DNA of 44,972 nt from Paracoccaceae bacterium (GTDB taxonomy: Bacteria > Pseudomonadota > Alphaproteobacteria > Rhodobacterales > Rhodobacteraceae): contig SLJW01000001.1 of NCBI GenBank assembly GCA_007134865.1, forward strand, positions 1 through 44,972, written 5' to 3'. The translations under genes and the position numbers were made by a program. The notes under the pieces were generated by a model. The model saw nothing but the letters and a program-made list of their open reading frames with translations. It made no database searches and was not told the origin of the DNA. The stretch's first letter is position 1. The number at the start of each line of letters is the position of its first letter. Below, piece by piece: positions 23,952 through 40,515 of this stretch.

Positions 23952-23954
23952 TGA

Positions 23955-25400: not shown

Positions 25401-25424
25401 GGGTCATCCCGACATGTAGAGCAT

Positions 25425-26711
25425 TCAGCGTTTGATATTCGTCGTTTCCTGCAGCATTTCATCCACTGTCTGGATGACCTTGGCGTTCGAGGAATATGCC
25501 CGCTGGGTCTGGATCAGGCTGGTCAGTTCTGCAGCGATATCGGTAGCGGATTCCTGAAGCGCGAAGCCTACGAAATCACCGACAGGGCCGGTTCCAGCGT
25601 CCCAAAGATAAAACGAGCCGCTATCACGCGACACCCGGAAAGCCTGACTGTCGAGAGCTGTCAGCCCATTCGGGTTGGGCACATCGACAATCGGAATGCG
25701 GTAAAGGGTTCTACGGAAACCTTGATCGTAAACGGCCTCGAGGTTCCCGCTGGCATCGATGATGAGGCCGACGAGATTCCCGGCGCCGACGCCATCCTGT
25801 TGGACACCCGCACCGGAGAAAGTCACGCCGCGCTGGACGATGCCACCACCAACACCGATCTCACCCAGCGACAGCTCAATGTCCTGCCCACCAATGTTAA
25901 TCGTGACCACCTTGTTATCGCTGGTTGCGTCGGGATCCGGAGACACCGACAGCAATGTGCCGGCCGTTCCAGGCGCATCATCAAATACAAGCGTGTAGCT
26001 ACCCAGAGCATCGCCAGTATCGGCGTGGACCAGGCTCATCTCCCATGTGTTCAATGCAACCGGAGTGAACTCGACATCGATTGTGTTGGACAATCCGAGG
26101 GTCGTGAAGAACTCGACTGAGAGGAACGACGTATCTCCGGACGCGGTTGGCAAAGTTGCCGAGGCGGGGAGATTTACACCGAGGTCAATCCGGGTTGTCG
26201 CAGAGAACGCCTGTTGATTGGTGTCAATTCTGACTGGCCGAAGGCCCGAATTGCTATCGCGCGGAAAGGGTGGAATGGTGCCATCCTGCGACGCAGGTAC
26301 GCCAAGCAAGGTATAGCCGGCGGCATCGCGGAGATAACCGTTGGCATCCATACGAAAGGAACCGGTCGTTGTGAGCAACATCGGCGCGGTGCCATCCTGC
26401 AAGGTCGCGCCGATCCCGGTTGTCACCGGCAGAAAACCGCGACCGGACAATGCGATATCCGTCGCATTGTCCGTTCCGACCAGCCCACCGCCCTGATCCA
26501 CGATGCGCTGGCTTGTGGTCCTGACGCCGCCCGCAGAATAATTCGCCTGCCCCGCCATTCCTGACCCGACAACCATGGAGTGAAAACTGGTCTGCGATCG
26601 GCGATAGCCATAGGTCGCCGAATTCGAGATGTTGTCAGAGATGGTCGCAAGTCGGTTGGCATTGGCCCGCAGTCCTGCCACACCCGCATTCATAGACGAC
26701 GAAATACTCAT
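25425..26711 (-). CDS. flgE: Flagellar hook protein FlgE
   Basis: 428-residue structural subunit of the hook. The N-terminus SSSMNAGVAGLRANANRLATISDNISNSATYGYRRSQ carries the flagellar rod/hook motif. FlgE-specific segments follow, with GGVRTTSQRIVDQGGGLVGTDNATDIALSGRGFLPV. The C-terminal helix LTSLIQTQRAYSSNAKVIQTVDEMLQETTNIKR closes the D0 domain. A middle domain rich in Thr, Ser and Asp (SGDTSFLSVEFFTTLG...) forms the surface. It follows motB by 78 bp and leads the E-K-L-I structural genes. Length is normal for the class with one outer domain. Confidence 0.95.
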   Translation of the reverse strand: MSISSSMNAGVAGLRANANRLATISDNISNSATYGYRRSQTSFHSMVVGSGMAGQANYSAGGVRTTSQRIVDQGGGLVGTDNATDIALSGRGFLPVTTGIGATLQDGTAPMLLTTTGSFRMDANGYLRDAAGYTLLGVPASQDGTIPPFPRDSNSGLRPVRIDTNQQAFSATTRIDLGVNLPASATLPTASGDTSFLSVEFFTTLGLSNTIDVEFTPVALNTWEMSLVHADTGDALGSYTLVFDDAPGTAGTLLSVSPDPDATSDNKVVTINIGGQDIELSLGEIGVGGGIVQRGVTFSGAGVQQDGVGAGNLVGLIIDASGNLEAVYDQGFRRTLYRIPIVDVPNPNGLTALDSQAFRVSRDSGSFYLWDAGTGPVGDFVGFALQESATDIAAELTSLIQTQRAYSSNAKVIQTVDEMLQETTNIKR

Positions 26712-26789
26712 GTCAGATCCATTCCACTACTGATTCTCTTCCGCCAACCTTGCGCCCGCTTTATTAAGATCAGCATAATGAGCACGAAC

Positions 26790-27578
26790 TCACTGGGCGA
26801 TATCACTGCGCAGCAAGACCAGTTCGACTCGCGAATTGCGTGCAGCCGTGGGTCTGGGGTCGACCGCGGAACGATCAGCATGGCCTGTCACCCGCTGAAA
26901 ACGCGCATCGGGTAACCCGTCCTCCATCAGCATTACGTGGACTGCCTGCGCCCGACTGACGGTGAGCGGCCAAACCTCATTGTCGAGTATCACCGCAGGG
27001 AGACTTCGGGTATGCGCACCGATGGCAATCTGATTGGTCACGGTTGCGAAGACCTCGGCGATGACCGAAGTCAGCAACCGTAATACAGGGCGAGCCTCGG
27101 CTGTCTGTTGGTCGAACAGCGTCGCGTCTTCGAGATCGAACAATTCGACAACCAGACCTTCGTCAGTCATCCGGATTGCAACATGATTGAATGCGTCAGA
27201 CAATGCGGCGTCCTGCGCCGCGATGGATTCGAGTACCCTTACCAGGCTTTCCAACGCGGATGCCTCCGAGAGGGATCGTTCACGCGTTGCAATAACGTCG
27301 GTCAGTGACGATTCGTGCGACAGTGACATGCCACCCATGACCCCATCGGAACCTGAGGAATGACTCTCAATCGCGTAGGTCTCGGAGAAATAGTCCGCGA
27401 TGCCCTGCCGCTTGTCATCTGTCACAGAGCCGAGAAGCCAGAGCATCAGGAAGAAAGCCATCATCGCGGTCACGAAATCAGCATAAGCAACCTTCCAGGC
27501 ACCCCCGTGATGCCCGCCATCTGCATTCTTCTTTTTACGCTTGATGATAACCGGCCTGACATTGTCAGAACGTGGCAT
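26790..27578 (-). CDS. motB: Flagellar motor stator protein MotB
   Basis: 262-residue inner-membrane stator subunit that anchors MotA to peptidoglycan and conducts ions. A basic N-terminus (IIKRKKKNADGG) precedes a single transmembrane helix, AWKVAYADFVTAMMAFFLML, in which Asp34 is the conserved proton-binding residue. The C-terminal OmpA-like domain contains VSRAQAVHVMLMEDGL, VTGHADRSAVDP and the closing ARNSRVELVLLR. motA is not next to it in this window; the next gene upstream is a divergent lytic-transglycosylase lipoprotein. It heads the flagellar run. Confidence 0.92.
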   Translation of the reverse strand: MPRSDNVRPVIIKRKKKNADGGHHGGAWKVAYADFVTAMMAFFLMLWLLGSVTDDKRQGIADYFSETYAIESHSSGSDGVMGGMSLSHESSLTDVIATRERSLSEASALESLVRVLESIAAQDAALSDAFNHVAIRMTDEGLVVELFDLEDATLFDQQTAEARPVLRLLTSVIAEVFATVTNQIAIGAHTRSLPAVILDNEVWPLTVSRAQAVHVMLMEDGLPDARFQRVTGHADRSAVDPRPTAARNSRVELVLLRSDIAQ

Positions 27579-27723
27579 GTCCCACCCATATTTTCACCCG
27601 AAGTCACGCTAGCACCCATGTCTGAACGAGCGGTTAATCCAGCAGCTCTGCGCCAACATGGTCACAATCGCTTCAGCGCAGTCTTCAGGTTCGGATCGGG
27701 CGCCGGAATCCATCCCCAAGGGG

Positions 27724-28369: not shown

Positions 28370-30421
28370 TTACGCCGCCCAGGTTTTCGCGACCATCGTC
28401 AAGACATCATACAGCGCGACGAGCTCATCCTTCTGGTTGCGGACCTGACAATCCCAGCGCACCTCGCCATACTCGCCGTCGGCACGCGGATTGATTTCCT
28501 TGCAGGTGAGGGTCACTTGCAGCGTGTCTCCCGGATAGACCGGGGTCAGGAAACGCAGATTGTCGATGCCGTAATTCGCCAGCACGGGGCCGGGATCGGG
28601 CTGCACAAAGAGCCCTGCAGCGAAGGACACGATCAGGTAGCCATGCGCCACGCGCCCGTCAAAGAACGGGTTGGCGCGCGCAGCGGCCTCGTCCATATGC
28701 GCGTAGAACGTGTCGCCAGTGAATTCCGCGAAATGCTCGATATCGGCGAGGGTTATCTCGCGCGCAGCGGTCACGAGCTGGTCGCCGATGCGCAGTTCAG
28801 CCAGTGCCTTGCGGAACGGATGAATGTCGCGGCGCGCCTCTGCGCCATTCAGCCAGCGGCCTGTTACAGCGCCAAGGAGGCGCGGTGCGCCCTGAACGGC
28901 CGTGCGCTGCATGTAATGATGCAACCCGCGCATCCCGCCCAGCTCTTCGCCCCCGCCCGCACGCCCCGGGCCACCATGCACAAGCATCGGCAGCGGCGAG
29001 CCGTGACCCGTGGAGGTTTTCGCGCTGTCGCGATTGCCGATCATGACGCGGCCATGGAATGGGGCGAGGCCCAGCACGACCTCCTCGGCCACCTCGGGAG
29101 CATGGGTGAAAAGGGAGGAGACGAGTGAGCCTTTGCCCTTGGCTGCAAGCTCCGTGACTTCGCCCAGATCGTCATATGGCATGAGCGTAGCAACCGGACC
29201 GAAAGCCTCAACCGCGTGAATGGCCTCTGCGCGCATTGGCTGGTCACCATAGAGCAGAACAGGGTTGAGGAACGCGCCCTTTTCCGCGTCGCCTGTCGCC
29301 ACGCGCACGGTGTCAGGGTCGCCCCCAACGATTTCGGCCTCGTTTGCAAGCTGCGCGATTGCCGCGCGCACATCGGCGCGCTGGTCAAGACTTGCGAGCG
29401 CGCCCATGCGCGTGGAAGGGTCTGCGGGCAGGCCGACAGCGACCTCGGACAGTTTCGCAGCGAGCGCATCGCGCACGGCCCCGGCCTGCGCGCGGGGAAT
29501 GATTACACGACGGATCGCCGTGCATTTCTGCCCGGCTTTCGCGGTCATCTCGCGCGTGACTTCCCGGATGAAGAGATCAAACTCAGGGCTCTCCGGTGTC
29601 GCATCAGGGCCAAGGATGCAGGCATTGAGACTATCGGCCTCCATCGTGAAACGCGTGCTCTCGCGGATAATCGCGGGATGGGCGCGCAGCTTTTGGCCCG
29701 TGCTGGCAGAGCCGGTGAAGGTCACGACATCCTGCCCGGTCACATGATCCAGAAGATCGCCCACCCCGCCGCATATCAGTTGCAGCGATCCCTCGGGGAG
29801 AAGCCCCGTCTCGATGATCCGTCGCACCATCAATTCGGTGAGGTACGCGGTCTGGCTCGCAGGTTTCACGATGGCCGGCATGCCCGCGAGCAGATTGGGA
29901 GCGAGTTTCTCGAGCATCCCCCAGAGCGGGAAGTTGAAAGCGTTGATATGCACCGCGACCCCGCGCAGCGGCGTCAGGATATGGTGCGCTGAAAAGGTCG
30001 CATCCTTCGAGAGCGGCTCCACCACCCCATCGGTCAGCACCCGTGTGTTGGGCAATTCGCGACGTGCTTTCGAGGCATAATTCAGCAGCGTGCCGATGCC
30101 ACCCTCAATATCGATCCAGCCATCCTTCGGCGTGGCCCCGGTGGCCAGCGAGAGCGCATGGAACTCGTCCTTCTGCTCCATGAGCTTAAGGCCCAGCGCC
30201 TTGAGCATCAGCGCGCGTTCGTGGACGGTGAGCGCACGCAGCGCAGCACCTGAGCGCCGCCCATGCGCCAACGCTTCGGCGAAATCAAGGCCAGTGGAAT
30301 CGATCTCGGCAACCAAGTCGCCCGTGGCCGCATCATGAAGCGGCTTTGCCGTCCCCTGCCCCTTGCGCCAAGCGCCGCAGACATAGCTTTCGAGCGCGCG
30401 CGGCTGCCATCCGTCAAGCAT
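28370..30421 (-). CDS. paaZ: PaaZ: oxepin-CoA hydrolase / 3-oxo-5,6-dehydrosuberyl-CoA semialdehyde dehydrogenase
   Basis: 683-residue bifunctional enzyme of the phenylacetate pathway. The aldehyde dehydrogenase half spans about residues 1-525; its catalytic cysteine is in TAKAGQKCTAIRR. The C-terminal MaoC-like hydratase half starts after ~residue 540, with FAEFTGDTFYAHMDEAA and FFDGRVAHGYLIVSFAAGLF, which opens the seven-membered oxepin ring. The semialdehyde is then oxidised by the first half. It is last in the paa operon and overlaps the preceding ferritin-like gene by 8 nt. The ATG follows GGAGTG. Full length with both active-site regions present. Confidence 0.96.
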   Translation of the reverse strand: MLDGWQPRALESYVCGAWRKGQGTAKPLHDAATGDLVAEIDSTGLDFAEALAHGRRSGAALRALTVHERALMLKALGLKLMEQKDEFHALSLATGATPKDGWIDIEGGIGTLLNYASKARRELPNTRVLTDGVVEPLSKDATFSAHHILTPLRGVAVHINAFNFPLWGMLEKLAPNLLAGMPAIVKPASQTAYLTELMVRRIIETGLLPEGSLQLICGGVGDLLDHVTGQDVVTFTGSASTGQKLRAHPAIIRESTRFTMEADSLNACILGPDATPESPEFDLFIREVTREMTAKAGQKCTAIRRVIIPRAQAGAVRDALAAKLSEVAVGLPADPSTRMGALASLDQRADVRAAIAQLANEAEIVGGDPDTVRVATGDAEKGAFLNPVLLYGDQPMRAEAIHAVEAFGPVATLMPYDDLGEVTELAAKGKGSLVSSLFTHAPEVAEEVVLGLAPFHGRVMIGNRDSAKTSTGHGSPLPMLVHGGPGRAGGGEELGGMRGLHHYMQRTAVQGAPRLLGAVTGRWLNGAEARRDIHPFRKALAELRIGDQLVTAAREITLADIEHFAEFTGDTFYAHMDEAAARANPFFDGRVAHGYLIVSFAAGLFVQPDPGPVLANYGIDNLRFLTPVYPGDTLQVTLTCKEINPRADGEYGEVRWDCQVRNQKDELVALYDVLTMVAKTWAA

Positions 30422-31175
30422 CGGTTTTCACTCCGCATTCGGACAAGTGCATCGCCACAGTCGCCTCCCACTCGGCGAGCATCTCGGCATTGGAGCGGTG
30501 CCGAAGCCCAAGCGCCTTCAAGCGTTCGAAACGCTCCGAGTCCTTCGCGCCAAAGCCCAGCGCCACGCGCGGATACCAGTACGCCAATGAGTCGCGGACA
30601 TGATCGGGTGCGTCATGCGCCAGCGTCAGAAGCCCGGCCCTCCCAAGCTCTGCATGGCGCGCCTCACGCGGCAGGATCGCGCGGAAGCACTCTGCAAGCG
30701 GCTGATAGGAGACTTGCGAAAACTCTCGAAGCTGGATTACCGCTGCGGCGCCCTGCAGGACATTCATCACAACAGAATCCACCCAGCCGGTCAGCGGGTA
30801 GTGAAACACCGCGAGCCGCATATCGCCGCCCTGCCGCACTGCCCCGATATCGGCTTCTCGCGGCAGTCGCGCGGCCCATGGGTGCGTGCCGACGTAGCGC
30901 GACACATCCGCGCCGAATTCGGCCATGATCTTGAGCACGCGTTCGGCATGATCGGCCTTCTCCAGCACGATCCGCGCGGCGGCAATCCGCGAGGTAATCC
31001 CCGGCGCGTCATTGATCACATCGGCAAAACCCGCCGACCCCGCCATCTCGCTGTCGATGAACGAGGCCATCATGCGCAGCAACTCCCCCCGATAGCGCGG
31101 CGGCACATTGCCGGGCGAGGTCAGCCGTCCGCCCTGCGCCAGATACTCCTCGATGGGCATGGTCTCATTCGTCAT
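30414..31175 (-). CDS. PaaA/PaaC-like ferritin-fold protein (phenylacetic acid catabolic family), extra paralogue
   Basis: 253 residues, alpha-helical, of the phenylacetic-acid-catabolic (PaaA/PaaC) family, inserted between paaE and paaZ. Compared by eye with PaaA of this same operon, the helix carrying DEAGH in PaaA (Glu86, His89) reads EKADH here (Lys73, His76), so a predicted iron-ligand Glu is replaced by Lys; the second ExxH (EARH, Glu171/His174) and the first Glu (Glu43) remain. This suggests an incomplete or altered di-iron site, closer to the structural subunit PaaC, which also lacks a full set. It overlaps paaE by 11 nt and paaZ by 8 nt, so it is firmly part of the operon. Function unproven. 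Confidence 0.8.
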   Translation of the reverse strand: MTNETMPIEEYLAQGGRLTSPGNVPPRYRGELLRMMASFIDSEMAGSAGFADVINDAPGITSRIAAARIVLEKADHAERVLKIMAEFGADVSRYVGTHPWAARLPREADIGAVRQGGDMRLAVFHYPLTGWVDSVVMNVLQGAAAVIQLREFSQVSYQPLAECFRAILPREARHAELGRAGLLTLAHDAPDHVRDSLAYWYPRVALGFGAKDSERFERLKALGLRHRSNAEMLAEWEATVAMHLSECGVKTDA

Positions 31176-32235
31176 AGCTGATCACCAATTTGTCGGAGAG
31201 GGGCAGACACTGGCAGGTCAACACATAGCCCTGCCTGACCTCGTAATCCTCGAGCGCGTGGTTGACGGCCATCTCGGCCTCGCCCTCAATCACCTTGGCG
31301 CGACAGGTCGAGCAGACCCCGGCCTTGCAGGCGAAGGGCGCATCGAGCGAAGCGCCCAACGCAGCATCGAGCACCGAAGTGCCATCCAGCGGCAGGTCCA
31401 GATTGCGCGTCGTGCCATCCAGCGTCACCGTCAGCGCGCAGGACTTGCCCTGCGCTGCCTGCACCTGCGCACGCGCCGACTGCTTGAGCCGCCCCGGCTG
31501 GTTCGAGGCAAACAGCTCGAACTTGATCTGACTGTCTTCCAGACCGTGATCGCGCAACGCGTCCGCAATGGTCAGCATCATCGGCTCGGGCCCGCAGATG
31601 AAGGCCGTATCTACAGATTTCGGATCAACCCAATGCTGGAACAACGCCGCCATCTTCTCGGCATCCACGCGACCGGTAAACAACTCGATCTCCTGCGCGT
31701 CCTGCTCCAGCACGTGAAGCACCGACAGCCGCCCCAGATAGAGGTTCTTCAAATCCTCCAATTCCTCTCGGAACATGATCGAGCTGATCTGGCGGTTGGC
31801 ATAAACGAGCGTGAAGCGGCTTTTCGGCTCGCGCGCCAGCACAGTGCGGATGATCGACAGCACCGGCGTGATCCCCGATCCGCCCGCGAAGCCCAGATAA
31901 TGCCGCGCCTCATCTGGGGCGAGGGGCACATGGAAATTCCCCGCAGGCGGCATCGCCTCCAGCTCATCACCGGGCGCGAGGTTCTCATTCGCCCATGTGG
32001 AAAACGCCCCGCCATCGACCCGCTTGATGCCAACGCGCAGATGTCCATCATCGAGCCCCGAGCAGATGGAATAGGAGCGCCGGATTTCCTGTCCGTCGAA
32101 ATCGCGGCGGAAGGTCAGATACTGGCCCTGAATGAAGCGGAACGTCTCTGCATCGGGTGCCTGCAAGGTGACGATGACCGAATCGCGCGTGTCATGCAGC
32201 ACATCGGTCACTTTCAAAGGGTGAAATCGGCTCAT
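31165..32235 (-). CDS. paaE: PaaE: phenylacetyl-CoA 1,2-epoxidase reductase
   Basis: 356-residue electron-transfer subunit. The ferredoxin-reductase part has the FAD motif RRSYSICS and an NAD(P)-binding GFAGGSGITPVLSI plus ICGPEPMM. The C-terminal plant-type 2Fe-2S ferredoxin holds CKAGVCSTCRAKV and the last ligand in LTCQCLPL. It feeds electrons from NADPH to the PaaAC oxygenase core. The ATG at 32235 follows GAGGG; the 14-residue upstream extension is spurious. The gene follows paaD by 10 bp and overlaps the next gene by 11 nt. Confidence 0.95.
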   Translation of the reverse strand: MSRFHPLKVTDVLHDTRDSVIVTLQAPDAETFRFIQGQYLTFRRDFDGQEIRRSYSICSGLDDGHLRVGIKRVDGGAFSTWANENLAPGDELEAMPPAGNFHVPLAPDEARHYLGFAGGSGITPVLSIIRTVLAREPKSRFTLVYANRQISSIMFREELEDLKNLYLGRLSVLHVLEQDAQEIELFTGRVDAEKMAALFQHWVDPKSVDTAFICGPEPMMLTIADALRDHGLEDSQIKFELFASNQPGRLKQSARAQVQAAQGKSCALTVTLDGTTRNLDLPLDGTSVLDAALGASLDAPFACKAGVCSTCRAKVIEGEAEMAVNHALEDYEVRQGYVLTCQCLPLSDKLVISYDE

Positions 32236-32245
32236 CTCGCGGCCC

Positions 32246-32752
32246 TCAGATACATTTGAAATAATCGAACGGCTCAAGACAGGACCGGCACTGATAGGCG
32301 GCCTTGCAAGGCGTGGAACCGAATTGGCTCACCTTTTGCGTATCCTCCGACCCGCAATGCGGGCAGGGCACCACCAGCGCCGCTCCGGTCAACCGCTTGA
32401 TCCGCCCTTCGACCACGCCTTCGGCGCGCGTGCCGTCGATGGGGGGCGCGATGCCATAGGCGCGCAGCTTCTCACGCGCCTCGGGTTTCAGCCAGTCGGT
32501 CGTCCATGGCGGGTCAAGCTGTCGCTCCAGCCGTACATCCGCGACACCCTTGTCGCGCAGCGCCTTCTCAATCTCGAAATTGATCACCGAGGTCGCCGGG
32601 CAGCCGGAATAGGTGGGCGTCACTGTCACCACCACGGTTTCGCCTTCGACGGTCACATCGCGCACGATGCCCAGATCAGTGACCGAGATCACCGGGATCT
32701 CGGGGTCCGGCACTTCCGATAGCCAGTCCCAGACTTGTGCCTCGCTTACCAT
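32246..32752 (-). CDS. paaD: PaaD: epoxidase maturation protein (MIP18/DUF59 family)
   Basis: 167 residues. The N-terminal MIP18-type domain (VWDWLSEVPDPEIPVISVTDLGIV, TPTYSGCPATSVI) is shared with iron-sulfur assembly factors. The C-terminal zinc ribbon has CPHCGSEDT and CRSCLEPFDYFKC. PaaD is needed to mature the epoxidase, probably its iron centres, and is not part of the purified enzyme. The ATG at 32752 overlaps the paaC stop by 7 nt. An alternative start at 32782 would lie fully inside paaC and is unlikely. Confidence 0.94.
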   Translation of the reverse strand: MVSEAQVWDWLSEVPDPEIPVISVTDLGIVRDVTVEGETVVVTVTPTYSGCPATSVINFEIEKALRDKGVADVRLERQLDPPWTTDWLKPEAREKLRAYGIAPPIDGTRAEGVVEGRIKRLTGAALVVPCPHCGSEDTQKVSQFGSTPCKAAYQCRSCLEPFDYFKCI

Positions 32753-33516
32753 GTCGCGTCCGGATAGGCGCGCTGCAGCCATTGCATCGTGGCCAGCATA
32801 TGGCCCAGATGCTCCGAATGCGTGCCTTGCTTTCCGCCCTTGTGCAGGTAGGCGCCTTCGGGCGCCGTCAGCGTCGCCTCATCCAGCACTTCACCCACCA
32901 GCGACTCCCAAGTCGGGCGGATGCTGTCAGGCGCGGCCATGATGCCCGCCTCTGCCAGTGCGCGGTCAGTCTCATCACTCGTCAGCATCTCGCCAGTATA
33001 GGGCCAGAGCTTGTCGAGCGCCGTCTGCATCCGCTTGTGGCTCTCCTCGGTCCCGTCGCCGAGCCGAATCACCAGATCGGCTGAGCGCTCCAGATGATAT
33101 GCCACTTCGCGCCCTGCCTTCGCGGCGATCTCCGCAATGCGCGCATCGTTCGAGCCCTCCAGCGCCTTCAGCATCGGCTGGTGCCAGGCATCGAACAGGA
33201 ATTGCCGCATCAGGGTCTGACCGAAATCCCCGTTGGGCCGCTCGACCAGCAGCAGGTTGCGAAACTCCCAGACATCGCGGCGGAACGCGAGCGCATCCGC
33301 ATCGCGCCCCTTGCCCTCGACCTCACCCGCAAGGCCAAGCCAAAGCTGGGTCTGCCCGATAAGATCGAGCGCCATATTCGCGAGCGCAATATCCTCTTCC
33401 AGAACCGGCGCATGGCCGCACCATTCCGACACCCGATGCCCCAGCACCAATGTCGAATCCCCCAACCGACACAACCCTTCGAACAGCGCCGCGTCCAGAT
33501 CGACCACCGCCTCCAT
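32746..33516 (-). CDS. paaC: PaaC: phenylacetyl-CoA 1,2-epoxidase structural subunit
   Basis: 256-residue helical ferritin-like subunit that pairs with PaaA in the epoxidase. Conserved stretches are LGDSTLVLGHRVSEWCGHAP, LLVERPNGDFGQTLMRQFLFD and AAKAGREVAYHLERSADLV. PaaC lacks a working di-iron site, and EVAYH is consistent with this. The start ATG at 33516 overlaps the paaB stop as TGATG, typical of coupled translation; a GTG one codon earlier (33519) is possible. It overlaps paaD by 7 nt. Confidence 0.95.
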   Translation of the reverse strand: MEAVVDLDAALFEGLCRLGDSTLVLGHRVSEWCGHAPVLEEDIALANMALDLIGQTQLWLGLAGEVEGKGRDADALAFRRDVWEFRNLLLVERPNGDFGQTLMRQFLFDAWHQPMLKALEGSNDARIAEIAAKAGREVAYHLERSADLVIRLGDGTEESHKRMQTALDKLWPYTGEMLTSDETDRALAEAGIMAAPDSIRPTWESLVGEVLDEATLTAPEGAYLHKGGKQGTHSEHLGHMLATMQWLQRAYPDATW

Positions 33517-33800
33517 CACATCTTCCCCACATCTTCGGGAATGTCGAAAAAGGTCGGGTGCCGATAGACCTTGGAGTTCGACGGCTCGAACAGCGGCCCC
33601 TTTTCCGACGGGCTCGAAGCGGTGATCGCCGCGGACCGCACTACCCAGATGCTCACCCCCTCATTGCGCCGCGTATAGACATCGCGCGCATGCTTGACCG
33701 CCATCTCGGCATCGGGCGCGTGCAGCGAGCCCACATGCCGGTGGTTCAGCCCATGCTGACCGCGAATGAAGATCTCCCATAAAGGCCATTCACCGGACAT
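33516..33800 (-). CDS. paaB: PaaB: phenylacetyl-CoA 1,2-epoxidase subunit
   Basis: 94 residues from the ATG at 33800, which follows AAGGA; an upstream ATG at 33815 lies within a repeat-like leader. The protein begins MSGEWPLWEIFIRGQHGLNHRHVGSLHA and ends with RHPTFFDIPEDVGKM, matching PaaB, a small subunit of the epoxidase complex needed for activity in vivo. It lies 60 bp after paaA, the widest gap inside the operon, and that gap contains a strong hairpin. It overlaps paaC by one base (TGATG). Confidence 0.95.
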   Translation of the reverse strand: MSGEWPLWEIFIRGQHGLNHRHVGSLHAPDAEMAVKHARDVYTRRNEGVSIWVVRSAAITASSPSEKGPLFEPSNSKVYRHPTFFDIPEDVGKM

Positions 33801-33841
33801 ATCTCGATCCTTCATTTTCTTGCTGAAAATACTCCGGGGGT

Positions 33842-33860
33842 GCGGGGGCAGAGCCCCCGC
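33842..33860 (-). repeat. 8-bp stem hairpin and conserved leader in the paaA-paaB gap
   Basis: GCGGGGGC at 33842-33849 and GCCCCCGC at 33853-33860 form a perfect stem with a 3-nt loop, beginning right after the paaA stop codon. On the minus strand the hairpin is followed by ACCCCCGGAGTATTTTC and AGCAAGAAAATGAAGGA before paaB. From memory, sequences of this shape recur between genes of Rhodobacteraceae, so this looks like one copy of a dispersed element. It may attenuate transcription or stabilise the paaA message. Confidence 0.55.
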
Positions 33861-34838
33861 TCACTCCGCTGCGATCTTGCGCGCCGCCCGCTTGGCTGCA
33901 TGCGCCATCAGCCCCTCGCGGAACCATGCGCCATCGTCCCACGCTTTCTGCCGTGCTTCCATCCGCTCGGCATTGCAGGGGCCATTGCCCTTGATCACCT
34001 CGAAGAATTCCGACCAGTCGGGCTCGGAGAAATCATAGCCGCCCTTCTCCTCGTTCCAGCGCAAGTCCGGGTCGGGAATCGTGAGCCCCAGATACTCCGC
34101 CTGCGGCACAGTCTGATCGACGAATTTCTGGCGCAGTTCGTCATTGGTGTTGATCTTGATCTTCCACGCCATCGACTGCGCCGAATGCACCGAATCCTTG
34201 TCCGACGGGCCGAACATCATCAGCGAGGGATACCAGAAGCGGTTTAGCGCATCCTGCGCCATGGCCTTCTGTTCCGGCGTGCCCTGCGCCATCTTCATCA
34301 TGATGTCATAGCCCTGCCGCTGGTGGAACGACTCCTCCTTGCAGATGCGGATCATCGCACGGCTATAAGGGCCGAAGCTGGTGCGCTGCAACGGCACCTG
34401 ATTCATGATCGCGGCACCATCGACCAGCCAGCCCACGGCACCGATATCGGCCCAGTTCAGCGTCGGGTAATTGAAGATCGAGGAATATTTCATCTTGCCC
34501 GACAAGAGCGCCTCGGTCAGTTCATCGCGGCTCACCCCCAGCGTCTCGGCCGCGCAATAGAGGTAAAGCCCATGGCCTGCCTCATCCTGCACCTTGGCGA
34601 GCAGGATCGCCTTGCGCTCCAGCGTCGGCGCGCGGGTGATCCAGTTACCCTCGGGCAGTTGGCCCACGATCTCGGAATGCGCATGCTGGCCGATCTGGCG
34701 GATCAGCGTCTTGCGGTAGCCTTCGGGCATCCATTCCTTCGGCTCGATCTTCTCGCCCGCATCAATGCGCGCCTGAAAGGCCGCGAGCTTCTCGGGGTCC
34801 TCATTCGTCGCCTCCGATTTTACCATCTGTGCATACAT
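33861..34838 (-). CDS. paaA: PaaA: phenylacetyl-CoA 1,2-epoxidase catalytic subunit
   Basis: 325-residue di-iron oxygenase subunit that epoxidises the aromatic ring of phenylacetyl-CoA. The ferritin-like iron ligands are visible: Glu56 in AHSEIVG, Glu86/His89 in QDEAGHG, and the later [11 protein letters not shown]. The C-terminus ends in [28 protein letters not shown] precedes the ATG at 34838. paaJ lies 17 bp upstream in the operon and paaB 60 bp downstream, across a hairpin. Partners are PaaB, PaaC and PaaE encoded next to it. Confidence 0.97.
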
Positions 34839-34854: not shown

Positions 34855-36060
34855 TCAGACCCGTTCCAGTATCAGGGCAGCACCCTGCCCCACGCCAACG
34901 CACATCGTGCACAGCGCATAGCGCCCGCCCCGACGGCTCAATTCCCATGTCGCTGCCGCGACCATCCGTGCGCCTGAGGCCCCCAGCGGATGACCCATCG
35001 CAATCGCGCCGCCATTCGGGTTCACATGTTCGGCATCATCCGGCACGCCCAGGTCCCGCAGCGAGGCGAGCGCCTGCGCAGCAAACGCTTCGTTAAGTTC
35101 GATCAGGTCGATATCCTCGATCTTGAGCCCTGCCAGCGCAAGCACCTTGCGTACAGCAGGCACCGGGCCGATACCCATCACCCGCGGCTCCACACCCGCC
35201 GCGGCATAGGCCACGACTCGCGCGCGTGGTGTCAGCCCTTGAGCCTGCGCGACCTCCTCCGAGGCCAGCAGCAGGGCCGCCGCGCCGTCATTCACGCCTG
35301 ACGCATTGCCTGCTGTCACGCTCAGATCCGGCCCATTGATGCCGCGCAGCTTGGCCAGCGCCTCGGGCGTGGTCTCGGGGCGGGGGTGCTCGTCCATGTC
35401 GATCACCAGCGGATCGGCTTTGCGGCGCGGCACCGTGACGTGACAGATCTCATCAACAAAGCGACCCGCTTTCTGCGCCGCTGCCCAGCGCTGTTGCGAG
35501 CGTAGCGCGAAAGCATCCTGATCCGCCCGCGGCACGCCCCAGTCAGCTGCAACATTGTCAGCCGTCTGGGGCATCGAGTCGATGCCATACTCCGCTTTCA
35601 TCTTCGGATTCACGAAGCGCCATCCAATCGTCGTATCATAAACCGAATTCGCACGCGAAAACGCTGCCTCTGCCTTGGGCATGACAAACGGCGCGCGGCT
35701 CATGCTCTCAACCCCGCCCGCCATCATGAGCCCCGTGTCGCCAGAGCGGATCGCACGCGCGGCCATGCCAACGGCATCAAGCCCCGACGCACAAAGACGA
35801 TTCACGGTGATGCCCGGCACCTCGACAGGCAGACCCGCCAGCAGCGCCGCCATCCGCGCAACGTTGCGATTGTCCTCGCCGGCCTGATTGGCGCAGCCAT
35901 AGATCACATCCTCAACCTGCGCCCAGTCCAGCCGAGGATGCCGCTCGATCAGCGCACGGAGAGGGATTGCCGCCAGATCATCGGCCCTCACTGACGCCAA
36001 GGCACCGCCGTAGCGGCCAACTGGCGTGCGCTGGGCATCACAGATGAAGGCGTGTGGCAT
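34855..36060 (-). CDS. paaJ: 3-oxoadipyl-CoA / 3-oxo-5,6-dehydrosuberyl-CoA thiolase PaaJ
   Basis: 401-residue thiolase, last enzyme of the pathway, giving acetyl-CoA and succinyl-CoA. The acyl-accepting Cys90 is in NRLCASG; the other signatures are [20 protein letters not shown] and the general-base Cys in CVGVGQGAA. The strong GGGAGGAG ribosome site selects the ATG at 36060 rather than 36090. It is the first gene of the paa operon and sits just downstream of a predicted promoter and two dyad elements. PcaF of the protocatechuate route is nearly identical in sequence; the paa context decides the name. Confidence 0.92.
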
Positions 36061-36093: not shown

Positions 36094-36109
36094 TCGACCG
36101 ATTGGTCGA
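36094..36109 (-). promoter_or_regulatory. 16-bp dyad, candidate TetR-type operator at the paaJ transcription start
   Basis: TCGACCGATTGGTCGA is symmetric at 14 of 16 positions and abuts the predicted -10 element, so a bound protein would block the start. A second copy differing at three positions lies at 37223-37238 before the TRAP operon. ACCG-N-CGGT-like cores are typical of TetR-family sites, including the PaaR type of phenylacetate repressor in other proteobacteria as I recall it. No tetR gene is present in the window. Confidence 0.6.
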
Positions 36110-36138
36110 ACAATATCTCGAAAGCATCACACATCCAA
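36110..36138 (-). promoter_or_regulatory. Predicted promoter of the paaJABCDE-(PaaA-like)-paaZ operon
   Basis: On the minus strand, TTGGAT (36138-36133), a 17-nt spacer and TATTGT (36115-36110). The match is weak (3/6 and 4/6), as expected of a regulated promoter. It is flanked by the 16-bp dyad on the downstream side and overlapped by one arm of a wide inverted repeat. Confidence 0.45.
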
Positions 36139-36167
36139 GGAAAAATATGGGTATCTTGTGATGCTTT
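36121..36167. promoter_or_regulatory. Wide inverted repeat over the paaJ promoter, candidate PaaX site
   Basis: AAAGCATCACA at 36121-36131 and TGTGATGCTTT at 36157-36167 are exact 11-bp reverse complements separated by 25 nt. One arm is within the -35/-10 spacer, the other upstream of -35. The core TGATGC resembles the TGATTC half-site I recall for E. coli PaaX, but the arms face the other way, so this is only a suggestion. It could also form a stem at the 3' end of the paaX message. Confidence 0.5.
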
Positions 36168-36195
36168 TGGGCCGGACGAAAAAACTCTTGCGTTT

Positions 36196-37050
36196 TCATG
36201 CACTCACCAAGTTGCGCAGTGTATCATAGCGGGCACGGGTCTGGGGCGTGACGCGGGCAAGCGGCCCGGATGCTGCGGCAAACATCGTACCGACAGCCGA
36301 ATCAGCGTCAGGGCTGAGATGCAGATAGAGGCGGGCAAATTCCTTGCGCGCCGCATGACCGGGCCAGTGCTCGGGGAGCGCCTCGGGCACCAGTTGCGGA
36401 TCGCGCAAAGCGATTTCGCGGTAGGTGTGGACCAGAATGACGCGCAGCGCGAGCGCTGCGGCGGGGCTTGGGTAATCCGTTTTCGCGATCTGTCGAGAGA
36501 AGGTAAGAAACCCCTCGTAGGACTTGGCAAGCCCGTCCAACGGCCAGAGCTGTGCAACCATGGCGCGCAGCCCCGCGATAGACCCCTCGGGTCGCGCCGC
36601 AAAGGCAACCGCGCCCACGGGGCAAGCGCCGCGTGCCGGACCAAGGGCAAACATGTCGGATATCACGACAAACCCCGGCTCTGCCAGCGCTGCAACCTGC
36701 TGAGTGGCACCGCCTTCAGGAAAGCAGAGGAACCGCCATTCTGACACGGAGGGCGTGCCATAAATCACATCACCTGCTTGCGCATATTCGATACGTGCGG
36801 CCTCGGTCAGCGCGTAGAAACTTCGCCGCCCCTGCCGCAGACCCCGCACCTGTCCAGCAGCGACAAGCCGTGACATGGCCGTACGGATCAATGTCTCGCT
36901 TAGTCCCAGAGGCGCGCAAAATGTGATGATGTCACGGATGCCAACTTCACCGCCGCGCGGCGCCACAATGTCGCCGAACAGGGTGACAATGAAACTGCCC
37001 GCGCGCAGCGGTCCCGTCTGGGGCCATCGCATCTGGGTCAGTTCATCCAT
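36196..37050 (-). CDS. paaX: Phenylacetate regulator PaaX
   Basis: 284-residue transcription factor that represses paa genes and is released by phenylacetyl-CoA. After a short leader, a winged-helix domain covers roughly residues 15-95 (GSFIVTLFGDIVAPRGGEVGIRDI, LGLSETLIRTAMSRLVAAGQVRGLRQGRRSFYALTE). The PaaX-type middle and C-terminal domains follow, including LVHTYREIALRDPQLVPEALPEHWPG. The ATG at 37050 is chosen because the 38 residues upstream are cysteine/arginine-rich and unlike the family; the ribosome site is weak (CGGA). It is divergent from the TRAP operon and 135 bp upstream of paaJ. Confidence 0.93.
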   Translation of the reverse strand: MDELTQMRWPQTGPLRAGSFIVTLFGDIVAPRGGEVGIRDIITFCAPLGLSETLIRTAMSRLVAAGQVRGLRQGRRSFYALTEAARIEYAQAGDVIYGTPSVSEWRFLCFPEGGATQQVAALAEPGFVVISDMFALGPARGACPVGAVAFAARPEGSIAGLRAMVAQLWPLDGLAKSYEGFLTFSRQIAKTDYPSPAAALALRVILVHTYREIALRDPQLVPEALPEHWPGHAARKEFARLYLHLSPDADSAVGTMFAAASGPLARVTPQTRARYDTLRNLVSA

Positions 37051-37222
37051 CTTCACTATCCGAACCCGGTAGGTCTGCCAGCTTGCCCTGATAGCCTTTG
37101 GCGCGCAACGCCTGCAGCGAATCAAATCTTGATTTTTCAGAGCAAGACAGGTCAATCTCAACACATAAACATCTGCCGGGAGGGCGCTTCAACGCAAGCA
37201 CGAGCGCGTGTCGGGCACAAAA

Positions 37223-37238
37223 TCAACCGCTCGGTCGA
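37223..37238 (+). promoter_or_regulatory. Second copy of the 16-bp dyad, upstream of the TRAP operon
   Basis: TCAACCGCTCGGTCGA is identical to the paaJ-proximal dyad at 13 of 16 positions and is followed by the same A. It lies 82 nt before the dctP-type start codon in the 269-bp gap between paaX and the transporter. No convincing -35/-10 pair was found around it. It links the transporter to control of the paa operon. Confidence 0.6.
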
Positions 37239-37319
37239 AAAAACAGTGGCGTGAGGTCGAAACTTGTGCTTTCACTAAGATCGTTGCGGATGCAACATTA
37301 TCGATGGGAGGAGTAAGAC

Positions 37320-38357
37320 ATGAAACGCAGACCGATTCTGGGCCTGATGGGAGGAGCAGCTCTGGCGTTGTCGTTGGGCGCATCTGCCGCAACTGCACAG
37401 GAAGTCACGCTCAGGCTACACCATTTCCTTGCGGCGCAAGCCAATGTGCCGACGCATATTCTTGATGTCTGGGCAGACCAGGTCGAGGCGGACAGCGATG
37501 GCCGGATCAAGGTCGACCGCTTTCCCTCGATGCAGCTCGGCGGCACTCCCGGGGAGCTTTACGATCAGGCCGTCTCTGGGACGGCTGACGTGATCTGGAC
37601 CGTGGTCGGGCTGACACCGGGCCGCTTCCCCTCGACCGAGGTGTTCGAATTGCCCTTCATGGTCAGCGATGCACGCTCAGCCTCCTATGCCTATTGGCAC
37701 ATGTTCGAGGAATCGATGCAGGAGGAATTCTCCGAAACCAAGATCCTCGGCACATGGGTGCATGGCCCCGGTGTGATTCACACAGAGGATCCGGTCACCA
37801 GCCCTGATGATCTGCGCGGGATGCAGATCCGCGGCCCGTCGCGCCTGACCGTGCAACTGCTCGAGGCACTGGGCGCAACACCCGTTGGTATGCCGATTGC
37901 GCAATCCCCGGAGGCACTCTCGCGCGGAGTGATAAATGGGGCAATCATGCCCTGGGAGGTCACACCGGCACTTCGTATCCCGGAACTTGTAGAGAACCAC
38001 ACCGAGTTCGAGGGCGACATGCTCTATACGGTGACCTTCGTGCTGGCCATGAATCAGGAGCGCTACGACGCGCTTCCCGATGACCTGAAAGAGGTGATCG
38101 ACAACAATTCCGGGCTGGAATTCTCGGTCTTTGCAGGCGGCACCCAACAGGATTGGGACGCACCAGGGCGCGAAATGGCTGATGAGTTGGGAAATAACAT
38201 CATCACGGTCTCGGCGGACGATGCCGAAGTCTGGCGCGAGCGGGCAATGCCGATCTACGAGCGCTGGATTTCCGAAATGGAAGGTCGCGGGATCGATGGT
38301 CAAGCGATGATCGACCGCGCCCGTGAGTTGATGGCCGAATACGAGGCTGCCAACTAA
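37320..38357 (+). CDS. TRAP transporter substrate-binding protein (DctP type)
   Basis: 345-residue periplasmic receptor. The signal peptide (MKRRPILGLMGGAALALSLG...ATA|QEV) is cut near residue 26. The mature protein follows the DctP fold, with LRLHHFLAAQANVPTHILDVWADQ at the start. The carboxylate-binding arginine region is DLRGMQIRGPSRL, followed by the hinge-like GVINGAIMPWEV. Such receptors bind organic acids. GGGAGGAG precedes the ATG. Context (paaX next door, shared dyad with the paa operon) suggests phenylacetate or a related aromatic acid as ligand; the sequence alone does not tell. A terminator follows directly. Confidence 0.9.
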   Translation: MKRRPILGLMGGAALALSLGASAATAQEVTLRLHHFLAAQANVPTHILDVWADQVEADSDGRIKVDRFPSMQLGGTPGELYDQAVSGTADVIWTVVGLTPGRFPSTEVFELPFMVSDARSASYAYWHMFEESMQEEFSETKILGTWVHGPGVIHTEDPVTSPDDLRGMQIRGPSRLTVQLLEALGATPVGMPIAQSPEALSRGVINGAIMPWEVTPALRIPELVENHTEFEGDMLYTVTFVLAMNQERYDALPDDLKEVIDNNSGLEFSVFAGGTQQDWDAPGREMADELGNNIITVSADDAEVWRERAMPIYERWISEMEGRGIDGQAMIDRARELMAEYEAAN

Positions 38358-38382
38358 GAAAGAACCCTCCTTGCATGAACGG

Positions 38383-38410
38383 ACGGCCCTGCTCGCCGGG
38401 GCCGTTTTTT
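38383..38410 (+). terminator. Rho-independent terminator/attenuator between dctP- and dctQ-type genes
   Basis: ACGGCCC at 38383-38389 pairs with GGGCCGT at 38399-38405, followed by TTTTTT. It stands 26 nt after the receptor gene stop and 28 nt before the small-permease ATG. Partial termination here would yield more binding protein than permease. Confidence 0.8.
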
Positions 38411-38437
38411 CCAAAGGGACCGACCCAAGAGGCTGAC

Positions 38438-39022
38438 ATGCACGCAATCGCGATGGGCTTGTCGCGCGCACTGGCCATGATCGGAGGGATCGTGCTGGCC
38501 GCGCTGATCCTGATGACCTGCCTCTCGATCCTGGGTCGGCAACTCAGCATTCTACTACACAGCGACCTCGCACAAACCATCGCGCCCGGTCTTGCCACAG
38601 CGCTTCTCGGCATGGGTGTTGGCCCGATCTTTGGTGATTATGAGCTAACCGAACTCGGAATGGGCTTTGCGATCTTTTGCTTCCTGCCGCTGTGCCAGAT
38701 CACAGCGGGGCACGCGCGGGTCGATATCTTTACCTCCTTCCTCAAGGCTGGAACACAGCGCTGGCTGAGGCTTGTGATCGAGATCCTGTTTTCGGCGGCC
38801 CTCATTCTGATTGCGTGGCGCCTCTCGGTCGGCATGATGCGCCGCGTCAATACAGGTCAGACGACCTTCCTGCTGGAAATCCCCTACTGGTGGCCCTATG
38901 CCGCCTGTTTCGTGGCCGCGAGCATCACGGCGCTGGTTGGCATTTACATGGTCTGGGTGCGCCTGATGGAGGCAGTCAGCGGGCAAGACATCATCGGTGA
39001 AGGCGCGGAGGGCGAACATTGA
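38438..39022 (+). CDS. TRAP transporter small permease (DctQ type)
   Basis: 194-residue membrane protein with four hydrophobic segments: ALAMIGGIVLAALILMTCLSI near the start, then GMGFAIFCFLPLCQI, LVIEILFSAALILIAWRLSV and PYWWPYAACFVAASITALVGIYM. The ITAGHARVDIF element is the family signature. It partners with the large permease in Na+-driven uptake. AGAGG precedes the ATG at 38438; the upstream extension covers the terminator and is rejected. Its TGA overlaps the TTG start of the next gene. Confidence 0.9.
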   Translation: MHAIAMGLSRALAMIGGIVLAALILMTCLSILGRQLSILLHSDLAQTIAPGLATALLGMGVGPIFGDYELTELGMGFAIFCFLPLCQITAGHARVDIFTSFLKAGTQRWLRLVIEILFSAALILIAWRLSVGMMRRVNTGQTTFLLEIPYWWPYAACFVAASITALVGIYMVWVRLMEAVSGQDIIGEGAEGEH

Positions 39023-40515
39023 GCGCTATGGCAATCGGCCTGTGGTCCTTTCCGGCCCTGCTGACCCTCATCTTCCTGCGCGTGCCCATCGGTCTCGCGA
39101 TGTTCGTGACCGGGTTGGTCGGGCTGGTGCTGGTGACTGGCACCACCAACACACCGCTCTCACGGCTGCAGACCGAGACCTTCACCACCTTCGCAAGCTA
39201 TTCGCTCTCGATCATCCCGATGTTCCTGCTGATGGGCCATTTCGCCACGCTGGGCGGCATGTCTCAGGCGCTGTTCAAGGCCGCAGAGGGCTGGTTGGGT
39301 CACCGCAAGGGCGGCGTCGCGATGGCCGCTATTGGCTCCAGCGCGGGCTTTGGCGCGATCTGCGGCTCGTCTCTCGCCACGGCGGCCACGATGAGCCGCG
39401 TCGCGCTGCCGGAGTTGAAGCGCTACGGCTATGCGGGTGGCTTCTCGACCGCAACACTCGCGGCAGGCGGGACGCTGGGCATCCTGATCCCGCCATCCGT
39501 GGTGCTTGTGATCTATGCCATTCTGACCGAACAGAACATCGCGAAGCTCTTTCTCGCAGCCTTCGTCCCGGGCATCATGGCCGCGCTCGGATATCTGATC
39601 GTGATCGCGATCTATGTGCGCGTGAACCCCGAGTCCGCAGGAATCCGCCCCCGCATCCCATATGGAGAGCGTTTCCGCGCACTCGCAAAGGTCTGGCCAG
39701 TGATGGTGGTCTTCGGGCTTGTCGTGGGGGGAATCTACGCGGGCTGGTTCACACCCACCGAAGGGGCCGCTGTGGGGGCGCTCGGGACAGGGCTGATTGC
39801 ATGGGTCAATGGCGGCCTCACCCGCAAGACATTGGCCGAAAGTTTCTATGTGACCGCGCGCTCATCCGCGATGATCTTCTTCATCATCTTCGGCGCGGCG
39901 TTCTATAATGGATTTCTCGCGCTCACACAGGTGCCGCAAAGCATTGCTGCATGGGTCGGGGGGTCCGGCTTCAGTCCGCTTATGGTGCTGCTGCTGATCC
40001 TTTGCTTCTACCTGATCCTTGGCTGCGTGATGGACAGCCTGTCGATGATCCTGCTGACAATTCCGATCTTCTGGCCCATCATGATGGAGTTGGATTTCAA
40101 CTTCGTCACCATGGCCGATCTTCATGCCGCGCGCGCACGCGAAGCGATTCGCGCTGGCGTTGAGGTCGCGCCCGAGATGTTGCGATCCGTCGAGGCCGCG
40201 ATAGCCGCTGGCGCGGAATTGACGCGCGAACAGATTCAGGCGCTGGGTCTGCGTCGCGTGAATGAGTTGGCCTTGCAACGCGCGAATATCGAGATGACTG
40301 CGATCTGGTTCGGCATACTGGTGCTGATCGTCGTCGAGGTCGGCTTGATCACACCACCCGTGGGAATGAACCTCTTCGTCATCAACGCAATGGACCCGAA
40401 AACGCGGATTACCGACACCTATCGGGCAGTTCTGCCATTTGTGGCATCCGATCTGATCCGCGTCGTCATTCTCGTGGCGTTTCCGGCGATTACTCTGTTT
40501 CTGTTGGCGATCTGA
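39019..40515 (+). CDS. TRAP transporter large permease (DctM type) with an unusual internal insert
   Basis: 498-residue channel subunit of a TRAP transporter with about 12 membrane segments. Signatures are SIIPMFLLMGHFATLGGM, AAIGSSAGFGAICGSSLATAATM, LAAGGTLGILIPPSVVLVIYA and the late VGLITPPVGMNLFVINAM. The family is usually ~430 residues. The extra length is a ~60-residue hydrophilic, Ala/Glu/Arg-rich segment (about residues 362-423, DLHAARAREAIRAG ... LALQRANIEM) between two membrane helices. The TTG start at 39019 has an ideal GGAGGG six nt upstream; an ATG at 39028 is less well placed. Coupled to the small permease by overlapping codons. Confidence 0.9.
   Translation: MSAMAIGLWSFPALLTLIFLRVPIGLAMFVTGLVGLVLVTGTTNTPLSRLQTETFTTFASYSLSIIPMFLLMGHFATLGGMSQALFKAAEGWLGHRKGGVAMAAIGSSAGFGAICGSSLATAATMSRVALPELKRYGYAGGFSTATLAAGGTLGILIPPSVVLVIYAILTEQNIAKLFLAAFVPGIMAALGYLIVIAIYVRVNPESAGIRPRIPYGERFRALAKVWPVMVVFGLVVGGIYAGWFTPTEGAAVGALGTGLIAWVNGGLTRKTLAESFYVTARSSAMIFFIIFGAAFYNGFLALTQVPQSIAAWVGGSGFSPLMVLLLILCFYLILGCVMDSLSMILLTIPIFWPIMMELDFNFVTMADLHAARAREAIRAGVEVAPEMLRSVEAAIAAGAELTREQIQALGLRRVNELALQRANIEMTAIWFGILVLIVVEVGLITPPVGMNLFVINAMDPKTRITDTYRAVLPFVASDLIRVVILVAFPAITLFLLAI

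Follow-up and report, generated by a model that had tools for sequence, protein, structure and literature searches.

Is the import of aromatic acids in this Paracoccaceae bacterium under the same control as the phenylacetate (paa) pathway encoded beside it, and if so, which regulator would be responsible? The question is raised by two similar 16-bp near-palindromes in the window analyzed here (the whole stretch of 44,972 nucleotides), one at paaJ and the other before the genes of a TRAP transporter. The first-pass annotation had read them as a shared operator, recognized by a TetR regulator encoded elsewhere, and the transporter as a dedicated importer of phenylacetate-type acids. The features on which the argument turns are:

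28370-30421, minus strand: paaZ (TIGR02278, 1015 bits)
30414-34838, minus strand: paaA, paaB, paaC, paaD, paaE and a further PaaA/PaaC-like gene (30414-31175), by profile matches
34855-36060, minus strand: paaJ, 3-oxoadipyl-CoA thiolase (TIGR02430 and NF006551, both above cut-off)
36094-36109, minus strand: candidate PaaR box of the paaJ operon, TCGACCGATTGGTCGA (minus-strand reading TCGACCAATCGGTCGA)
36115-36110, minus strand: putative -10 of the paaJ operon, TATTGT, directly upstream of the paaJ PaaR box
36121-36167, no strand assigned: AAAGCATCACA-N25-TGTGATGCTTT, a widely spaced inverted repeat of the paaJ promoter and, by position and form, a candidate PaaX operator
36196-37050, minus strand: paaX, PaaX-family regulator, upstream of paaJ (PF07848 and PF08223 above cut-off)
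37223-37238, plus strand: candidate PaaR box of the TRAP operon, TCAACCGCTCGGTCGA, 81 bp before the dctP ATG
37283-37301, plus strand: GTTGC-N3-TGCAAC-N-TTAT element, TRAP promoter or leader, exact at the TRAP genes of 17 of the 18 paa-positive genomes
37320-38357, plus strand: dctP, TarP-like TRAP solute-binding protein (profile match, structure model, fold match)
38375-39022, plus strand: dctQ, small TRAP membrane subunit (PF04290, 61 bits; no NCBIfam match)
39019-40515, plus strand: dctM, large TRAP membrane subunit (TIGR00786, 286 bits, above cut-off)

Two dyads in one window

Both dyads are present as described, one in the gap between paaJ and paaX and the other in that between paaX and dctP; they differ at 3 of 16 positions (13/16 identical). 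The -10 predicted beside the first was only partly borne out: ACAATA (36110-36115; TATTGT on the minus strand) does adjoin the dyad directly, but the promoter scan does not list it. The only sigma-70-like site that the scan lists between paaJ and dctP is TTGAGA-N18-AAAAAT (37132-37161, minus strand), upstream of paaX, which could be the paaX promoter. Two further features of the window are an extra PaaA/PaaC-like protein between paaE and paaZ (30414-31175, minus strand; PF05138, 63 bits), on top of the usual paaABCDE set, and a group of flagellar genes (21838-27578, minus strand; FlgI, flagellin-like, FlgK-like, rod-protein-like, MotB-like) that lies 0.8 kb beyond paaZ.

How unusual is such a pair? 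With up to three mismatches, TCGACCGATTGGTCGA matches only the two dyads in the 45-kb window (4 strand-hits), while shuffled windows give a mean of 0.63 strand-hits and reach 4 in 1 of 100 shuffles. Genome-wide, where the first-pass annotation had proposed a scan with the 16-mer, the same tolerance yields 82 strand-hits where the reversed control yields 28; a pattern this loose lacks specificity, and the count is uninformative. Tighter patterns fare no better as counts. The consensus TYRACCRNNCGGTCRR has 4 hits in this genome (before paaI-paaK-TetR, at paaJ, before the TRAP genes, and one inside an ORF) against 6 for its reversed control, and RACCRNNCGGTCGR, drawn from the paaJ and TRAP sites, has 16 against 15. 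With these counts no higher than the control, what carries the case is location, conservation and a separately trained motif.

A third copy, a TetR protein and conservation in the genus

One of the RACCRNNCGGTCGR hits precedes paaI, paaK and a TetR gene on another contig of the same genome (L060; G000:C168). The paaI and paaK products match TIGR02286 and TIGR02155, each above cut-off; the TetR protein downstream of paaK carries PF00440 (TetR_N; 53 bits, cut-off 24) and PF17932 (TetR_C_24), and its best PDB sequence match is 3ccy, named as a putative TetR-family regulator. TetR_N has seven matches in this genome, six above cut-off and one below, none of them on the window's contig, and a TetR regulator inside the window was therefore rejected. 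In the genus, a TetR gene directly follows paaK in all 18 genomes that have paaK (in one, G026, truncated by the contig end). The paaK-paaR operon is headed by paaI in the present genome (L060, 3141-5483) and four near relatives; in 12 other congeners (L086-L097) a different gene, which by eye resembles paaG, extends as far as paaI.

Among known systems, the closest is PaaR of Burkholderia cenocepacia, also a TetR protein encoded with paa genes, a repressor of these genes with a dyad of ACCRNNCGGT core at paa promoters. Here too, dyads of the ACCRNNCGGT type are found at several paa promoters: paaI or paaG, paaJ, and the TRAP genes. The published B. cenocepacia operator, ACCGACCGGTCGGTT (PMC2770484, PMC9493321), differs from the present boxes outside the core. 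Hamlin et al. describe the repeats as specific to phenylacetate catabolic clusters (PMC2770484); unlike here, the excerpts of this literature name no transporter as a target, and there is no PaaX homologue in that system. The TetR gene directly downstream of paaK is treated as the candidate paaR, and the earlier expectation of a TetR regulator encoded elsewhere is supported.

A symmetrized weight matrix was trained on 17 boxes of the genus paaG/paaI-paaK-paaR operon, with the window sites left out. It ranks the paaJ site first in the window (17.95) and the TRAP site second (14.85), ahead of a third position at 12.48; for random sequence of the same dinucleotide composition as the window, the first two scores correspond to 0.03 and 0.11 expected matches per 45-kb window, or about 0.0002 and 0.0006 per intergenic gap of 260 bp. 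Training on distinct boxes only leaves the order unchanged (17.24, 14.47 and 13.5 for the third; 0.04 and 0.16 expected). The test is not fully independent, since the training boxes were found with patterns drawn from window-type sites (5 by a loose pattern, 12 by a matrix that included such sites); the set is not arbitrary either, since all its members share one fixed sequence context before the operon. The third-best position, CTGAACGAGCGGTTAA (27622-27637), lies in the gap between the MotB-like and lytic-transglycosylase genes and is probably a chance match.

The comparison set comprised 37 genomes of the genus, this one included. A dctP of at least 79% identity (the partial gene of G013 has 96%), paaK and the TetR gene occur in the same 18 of the 37 (Fisher 6e-11 for dctP and paaK, with genomes counted as independent regardless of kinship). 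All 18 paa-positive genomes have the TRAP box, 17 of them matching the strict pattern and one (G014) a degenerate form; of the 17, one ends in CAA (G033), one has TA in the center (G016), and that of G013 is on another contig. Upstream of four more distant TRAP orthologues (73-76% identity; G001, G012, G015, G029) no such dyad was found, and their genomes have neither paaK nor the TetR gene. Over 17 aligned TRAP loci, the columns of the box average 98% identity; the figure falls to 46% at 7-60 bp on the upstream side (toward paaX) and to 75% over the next 19 bp toward dctP. The 4 bp preceding the box are likewise conserved. The stretch from box to ATG holds two kept blocks, CTTGTGCTTTCA and GTTGC-N3-TGCAAC-N-TTAT, and the region upstream of the box is variable. 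The latter block, which has only 2 further hits across the 37 genomes, may act as an additional operator, belong to the promoter or form a hairpin in the leader. The promoter scan lists no sigma-70 promoter at the TRAP box, and no convincing -35/-10 pair was recognized there, which leaves simple promoter blocking unsupported at this site.

Within the genus, the paaK-TetR operon has a box at its promoter (before paaI or paaG) in each of the 17 loci for which upstream sequence exists (L081-L097; G004 left out). The TTGACC that these boxes contain could be a -35 hexamer, which would suit repression. Outside the genus, five of eight paaK loci have a box scoring at least 16.6 within 2 kb of paaK; another (L129) has one of 19.7, but 4.1 kb away, and two score 13.2 in the same context as the genus boxes. 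Two of the eight also have a good match inside an ORF (in L127 identical to the TRAP 16-mer), so that single hits mean little. Exact copies of the TRAP 16-mer likewise occur inside ORFs in G033 and G043, and of the extra hits from a search for further regulon members in the genus, the four inspected all lie within ORFs (named by eye from the translations: hslU-like in G018 and G024, aspartate-carbamoyltransferase-like in G033, one without a name in G036). Taken together, the third copy at paaI-paaK-TetR, the separately trained motif and the persistence of the TRAP box throughout the paa-positive congeners support the shared operator that had been proposed, and PaaR very probably controls both the paaJ and the TRAP operons.

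Three other readings of the dyads have to be set against this one. That their resemblance is due to chance might be argued from the abundance of loose matches in the genome and from tight-pattern counts no higher than the reversed control, but a TRAP dyad nearly invariant in 17 aligned loci, and recovered by a motif trained elsewhere, makes this hard to credit. Dyads of this general form are used by many TetR proteins, and with six TetR_N matches above cut-off this genome offers other candidates; yet among the stretches of 4-10 kb around the seven TetR_N hits, only that of the paaK-linked TetR contains a RACCRNNCGGTCGR site, and this TetR and the TRAP box are found in the same genomes, so a different TetR reader appears very improbable. 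A somewhat better case can be made for the 37223 box serving the divergent paaX, not (or not only) the TRAP genes, in which event PaaR would set the level of PaaX: the box stands between the two genes, at distances of 172 bp (paaX) and 81 bp (dctP) in the window. Across loci, however, it keeps an almost fixed spacing of 81-90 bp from the start of the dctP match (shorter by a few bp if measured to the likely ATG of L033 and L040-L044), whereas its distance to the extrapolated paaX start ranges from 86 to 186 bp, and the flank toward dctP is the better conserved of the two; we regard this reading as improbable.

A second inverted repeat at the paaJ promoter

The PaaR reading of the dyads meets a difficulty at paaJ. 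Of 17 paaJ promoters from congeners, 10 have the box (one set contributes 9 of 16, and G013 the tenth; G026 left out). In six of the seven congeners without it, a group that includes G024, the wide inverted repeat of the same promoter is exact in its CACA-N25-TGTG core, and this combination counts against the PaaR reading. Overall, 15 of 16 congeners keep CACA-N25-TGTG unchanged at paaJ (L038 deviates), while the outer parts of the arms are less conserved, with 6 to 11 of 11 positions pairing.

By position and form, the wide repeat is likely a PaaX site. The paaX product scores 86 bits for PF07848 (cut-off 24.8) and 60 bits for PF08223 (cut-off 22), and 190 bits for the NCBIfam equivalog TIGR02277, below the cut-off of 264.55, which makes it a PaaX-family protein and not a certified equivalog. 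As in Escherichia coli, such a protein is encoded beside paa genes and a wide inverted repeat is present; the E. coli operator is TGATTC-N27-GAATCA (PMC9493321), whereas the arms here are AAAGCATCACA and TGTGATGCTTT, with N25 between them. The 16-bp dyad was also considered as the PaaX site and rejected, because it recurs before paaI-paaK-TetR and because paaJ has a separate wide repeat that is better kept. This agrees with the earlier remark that PaaX has a different kind of site.

The TRAP receptor, its cargo and the proposed regulon

What would the transporter carry? Its operon has the make-up of TarPQM: a DctP-type receptor with a small and a large membrane subunit. Ranks 1-5 among the fold matches of the DctP structure model (mean pLDDT 86) all go to TarP_Sse in complex with coumarate or cinnamate; identity is 65-66%, and the rmsd is 1.1-1.2 over 314-316 columns. 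Next come Rfer_2570, a marine receptor labeled “specific for aromatic acid ligands”, and TarP_Csal. This label stands at ranks 7-10 and 15, and TarP_Rhp with 4-hydroxyphenylacetate stands at rank 22. R171 and R175 are invariant in 29 receptors, as candidates only for the arginine that holds the ligand carboxylate in TarPQM. The likeness to TarPQM (Rhodopseudomonas palustris; TarP_Sse, PDB 7NR2/7NRA) thus extends to sequence and fold; the difference lies in the genes around it, TarPQM being at a coumarate locus (PMC3610893) and the present TRAP genes being linked to paa genes and PaaR boxes.

The neighborhoods of related receptors point in more than one direction. Among the homologues from named genomes, 80 of 574 were taken (some with flanks shorter than 3 kb), and paa queries find a match in the flanks of at least seven of these loci. 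Three are from this genus; two more are Rhizobiaceae MAGs, and one is an Ahrensia MAG, whose match is PaaZ-like. The last, Oceaniradius, has its thiolase next to an aldehyde dehydrogenase and a benzoate-CoA-ligase-like gene and is therefore not clearly a paa locus. In the two Rhizobiaceae MAGs (L261, L262; paaR 40-41% identical), a PaaR box is followed after about 0.85 kb by paaK-paaR-paaZ-dctP-dctQ-dctM, all on one strand. In the Ahrensia genome, paaK is away from the TRAP genes, and there is no box within the 19 kb taken around it.

Congeners aside, boxes scoring above 12 within 400 bp of dctP occur in 3 of the 77 homologous loci listed (L181, L218, L247). L247 has a PaaR-like dyad at -202 with a score of 21.4, yet its neighbors cluster with gentisate-type genes, and this argues against linking all dyads of this kind to paa. 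Among the neighbors of the 77 (L178-L254), a fumarylacetoacetate-hydrolase-like family is found in at least 14 loci, a gentisate-dioxygenase-like family in at least 11 and a 3-hydroxybenzoate-6-monooxygenase family in at least 3; the families were named from one representative each, the first two of which score below curated cut-offs. Close homologues of this transporter (L180, L184 and others) stand beside gentisate and 3-hydroxybenzoate genes in other Rhodobacteraceae. The TarP subfamily, which by these neighbors and by its fold kinship looks like a group of aromatic-acid importers, suggests recruitment to several aromatic pathways; in this genus, the link to paa genes probably points to phenylacetate-type acids as the cargo.

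An alternative is that PaaR controls the transporter but that its main cargo is another aromatic acid (coumarate, cinnamate, hydroxyphenylacetate or a benzoate-type acid), with phenylacetate a minor substrate or none at all. The closest solved receptor holds coumarate or cinnamate, related ones have been solved with ferulate, caffeate and 4-hydroxyphenylacetate, R. palustris TarP has nanomolar Kd values for coumarate, caffeate, ferulate and cinnamate (PMC3610893), and the homologues beside gentisate or 3-hydroxybenzoate genes include some of about 60-70% identity to this one. Against these stand the company of dctP with paaK and PaaR in all 18 genus genomes, and the Rhizobiaceae MAGs with the transporter in a row with paaK-paaR-paaZ; such a cargo seems possible, though on balance unlikely. 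Of the earlier claim of a dedicated phenylacetate-type importer, the importer has become likely, through co-regulation, the Rhizobiaceae linkage and the TarP-like receptor; “dedicated” is unsupported, given the range of ligands in the solved TarP receptors. Three partial SSF matches in this genome leave room for a second importer besides TRAP.

The reading preferred here, and held with good confidence, is that both dyads are PaaR operators, that PaaR controls paaI-paaK-paaR, the paaJ operon and the TRAP operon, and that the transporter imports phenylacetate or close relatives. The boxes, their conservation, the linkage of the TetR gene and the receptor's kinship with TarP are read directly from sequence; PaaR binding, repression, phenylacetyl-CoA as effector, and the transported substrate are inferred. 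In Burkholderia and Thermus, PaaR is reported to be released by phenylacetyl-CoA (PMC9493321, PMC4424350). Without phenylacetyl-CoA, PaaR would sit on the paaI-paaK-paaR, paaJABCDE(-paaZ) and TRAP promoters and keep all three low. Once an aromatic acid had entered and PaaK had made phenylacetyl-CoA from it, PaaR would let go, and ligase, catabolic operon and importer (TarP-type receptor, DctQ and DctM) would rise together; at the paaJ promoter, PaaX would act as a second repressor, probably through the wide inverted repeat. The dyad of L247, one of the gentisate-side homologues, shows that similar dyads also occur without visible paa linkage. An extension is offered tentatively, with some leaning against it: the regulon may be split between repressors of two different families, PaaR alone acting on the TRAP and paaI-paaK-paaR operons and PaaX and PaaR together on paaJABCDE, both sensing phenylacetyl-CoA. 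A receptor-dependent, high-affinity TRAP system would then replace a PaaL-type permease, and import and ligation would be induced first, ring epoxidation following once phenylacetyl-CoA had cleared both repressors.

Several parts of this scheme have precedents. The nearest one found is in Roseovarius nubinhibens, also a case of a TRAP importer for an aromatic pathway in the Roseobacter clade, where TRAP genes beside the pca cluster are up-regulated with 4-hydroxybenzoate (PMC12442348); it concerns the beta-ketoadipate pathway and 4-hydroxybenzoate instead of paa, and PaaR and PaaX are not mentioned in that paper. PaaL and PaaM of Pseudomonas putida are a case of transport tied to the phenylacetate pathway (PMC3224230), and PaaL is sigma54-dependent in P. 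putida CA-3; as of 2011, P. putida U was described there as the subject of the only functional study of phenylacetate uptake in Pseudomonas (PMC3224230). RegPrecise 3.0 names PaaR among its regulog collections, and a 2026 study predicts PaaX and PaaR together in several groups from gene neighborhoods, the word TRAP being absent from its main text (PMC13186573). Among the papers listed from the open-licence literature, judged by titles and the beginnings of abstracts, no TRAP transporter in a PaaR regulon was found. The parts are thus already known; new is a TRAP importer in a PaaR regulon beside a paa promoter marked for both PaaX and PaaR. PaaL of P. putida, unlike the TRAP system here, is a permease without a periplasmic receptor, and to our knowledge few phenylacetate importers are known at all. 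A PaaR-controlled, TarP-type TRAP system would be a concrete and testable one for the Alphaproteobacteria, and would tie a TarP receptor to a pathway by regulation, not by name. For the co-occurrence of PaaX and PaaR, predicted earlier, there is now a conserved candidate site for each, and the paaJ promoter would be a natural promoter with the two side by side.
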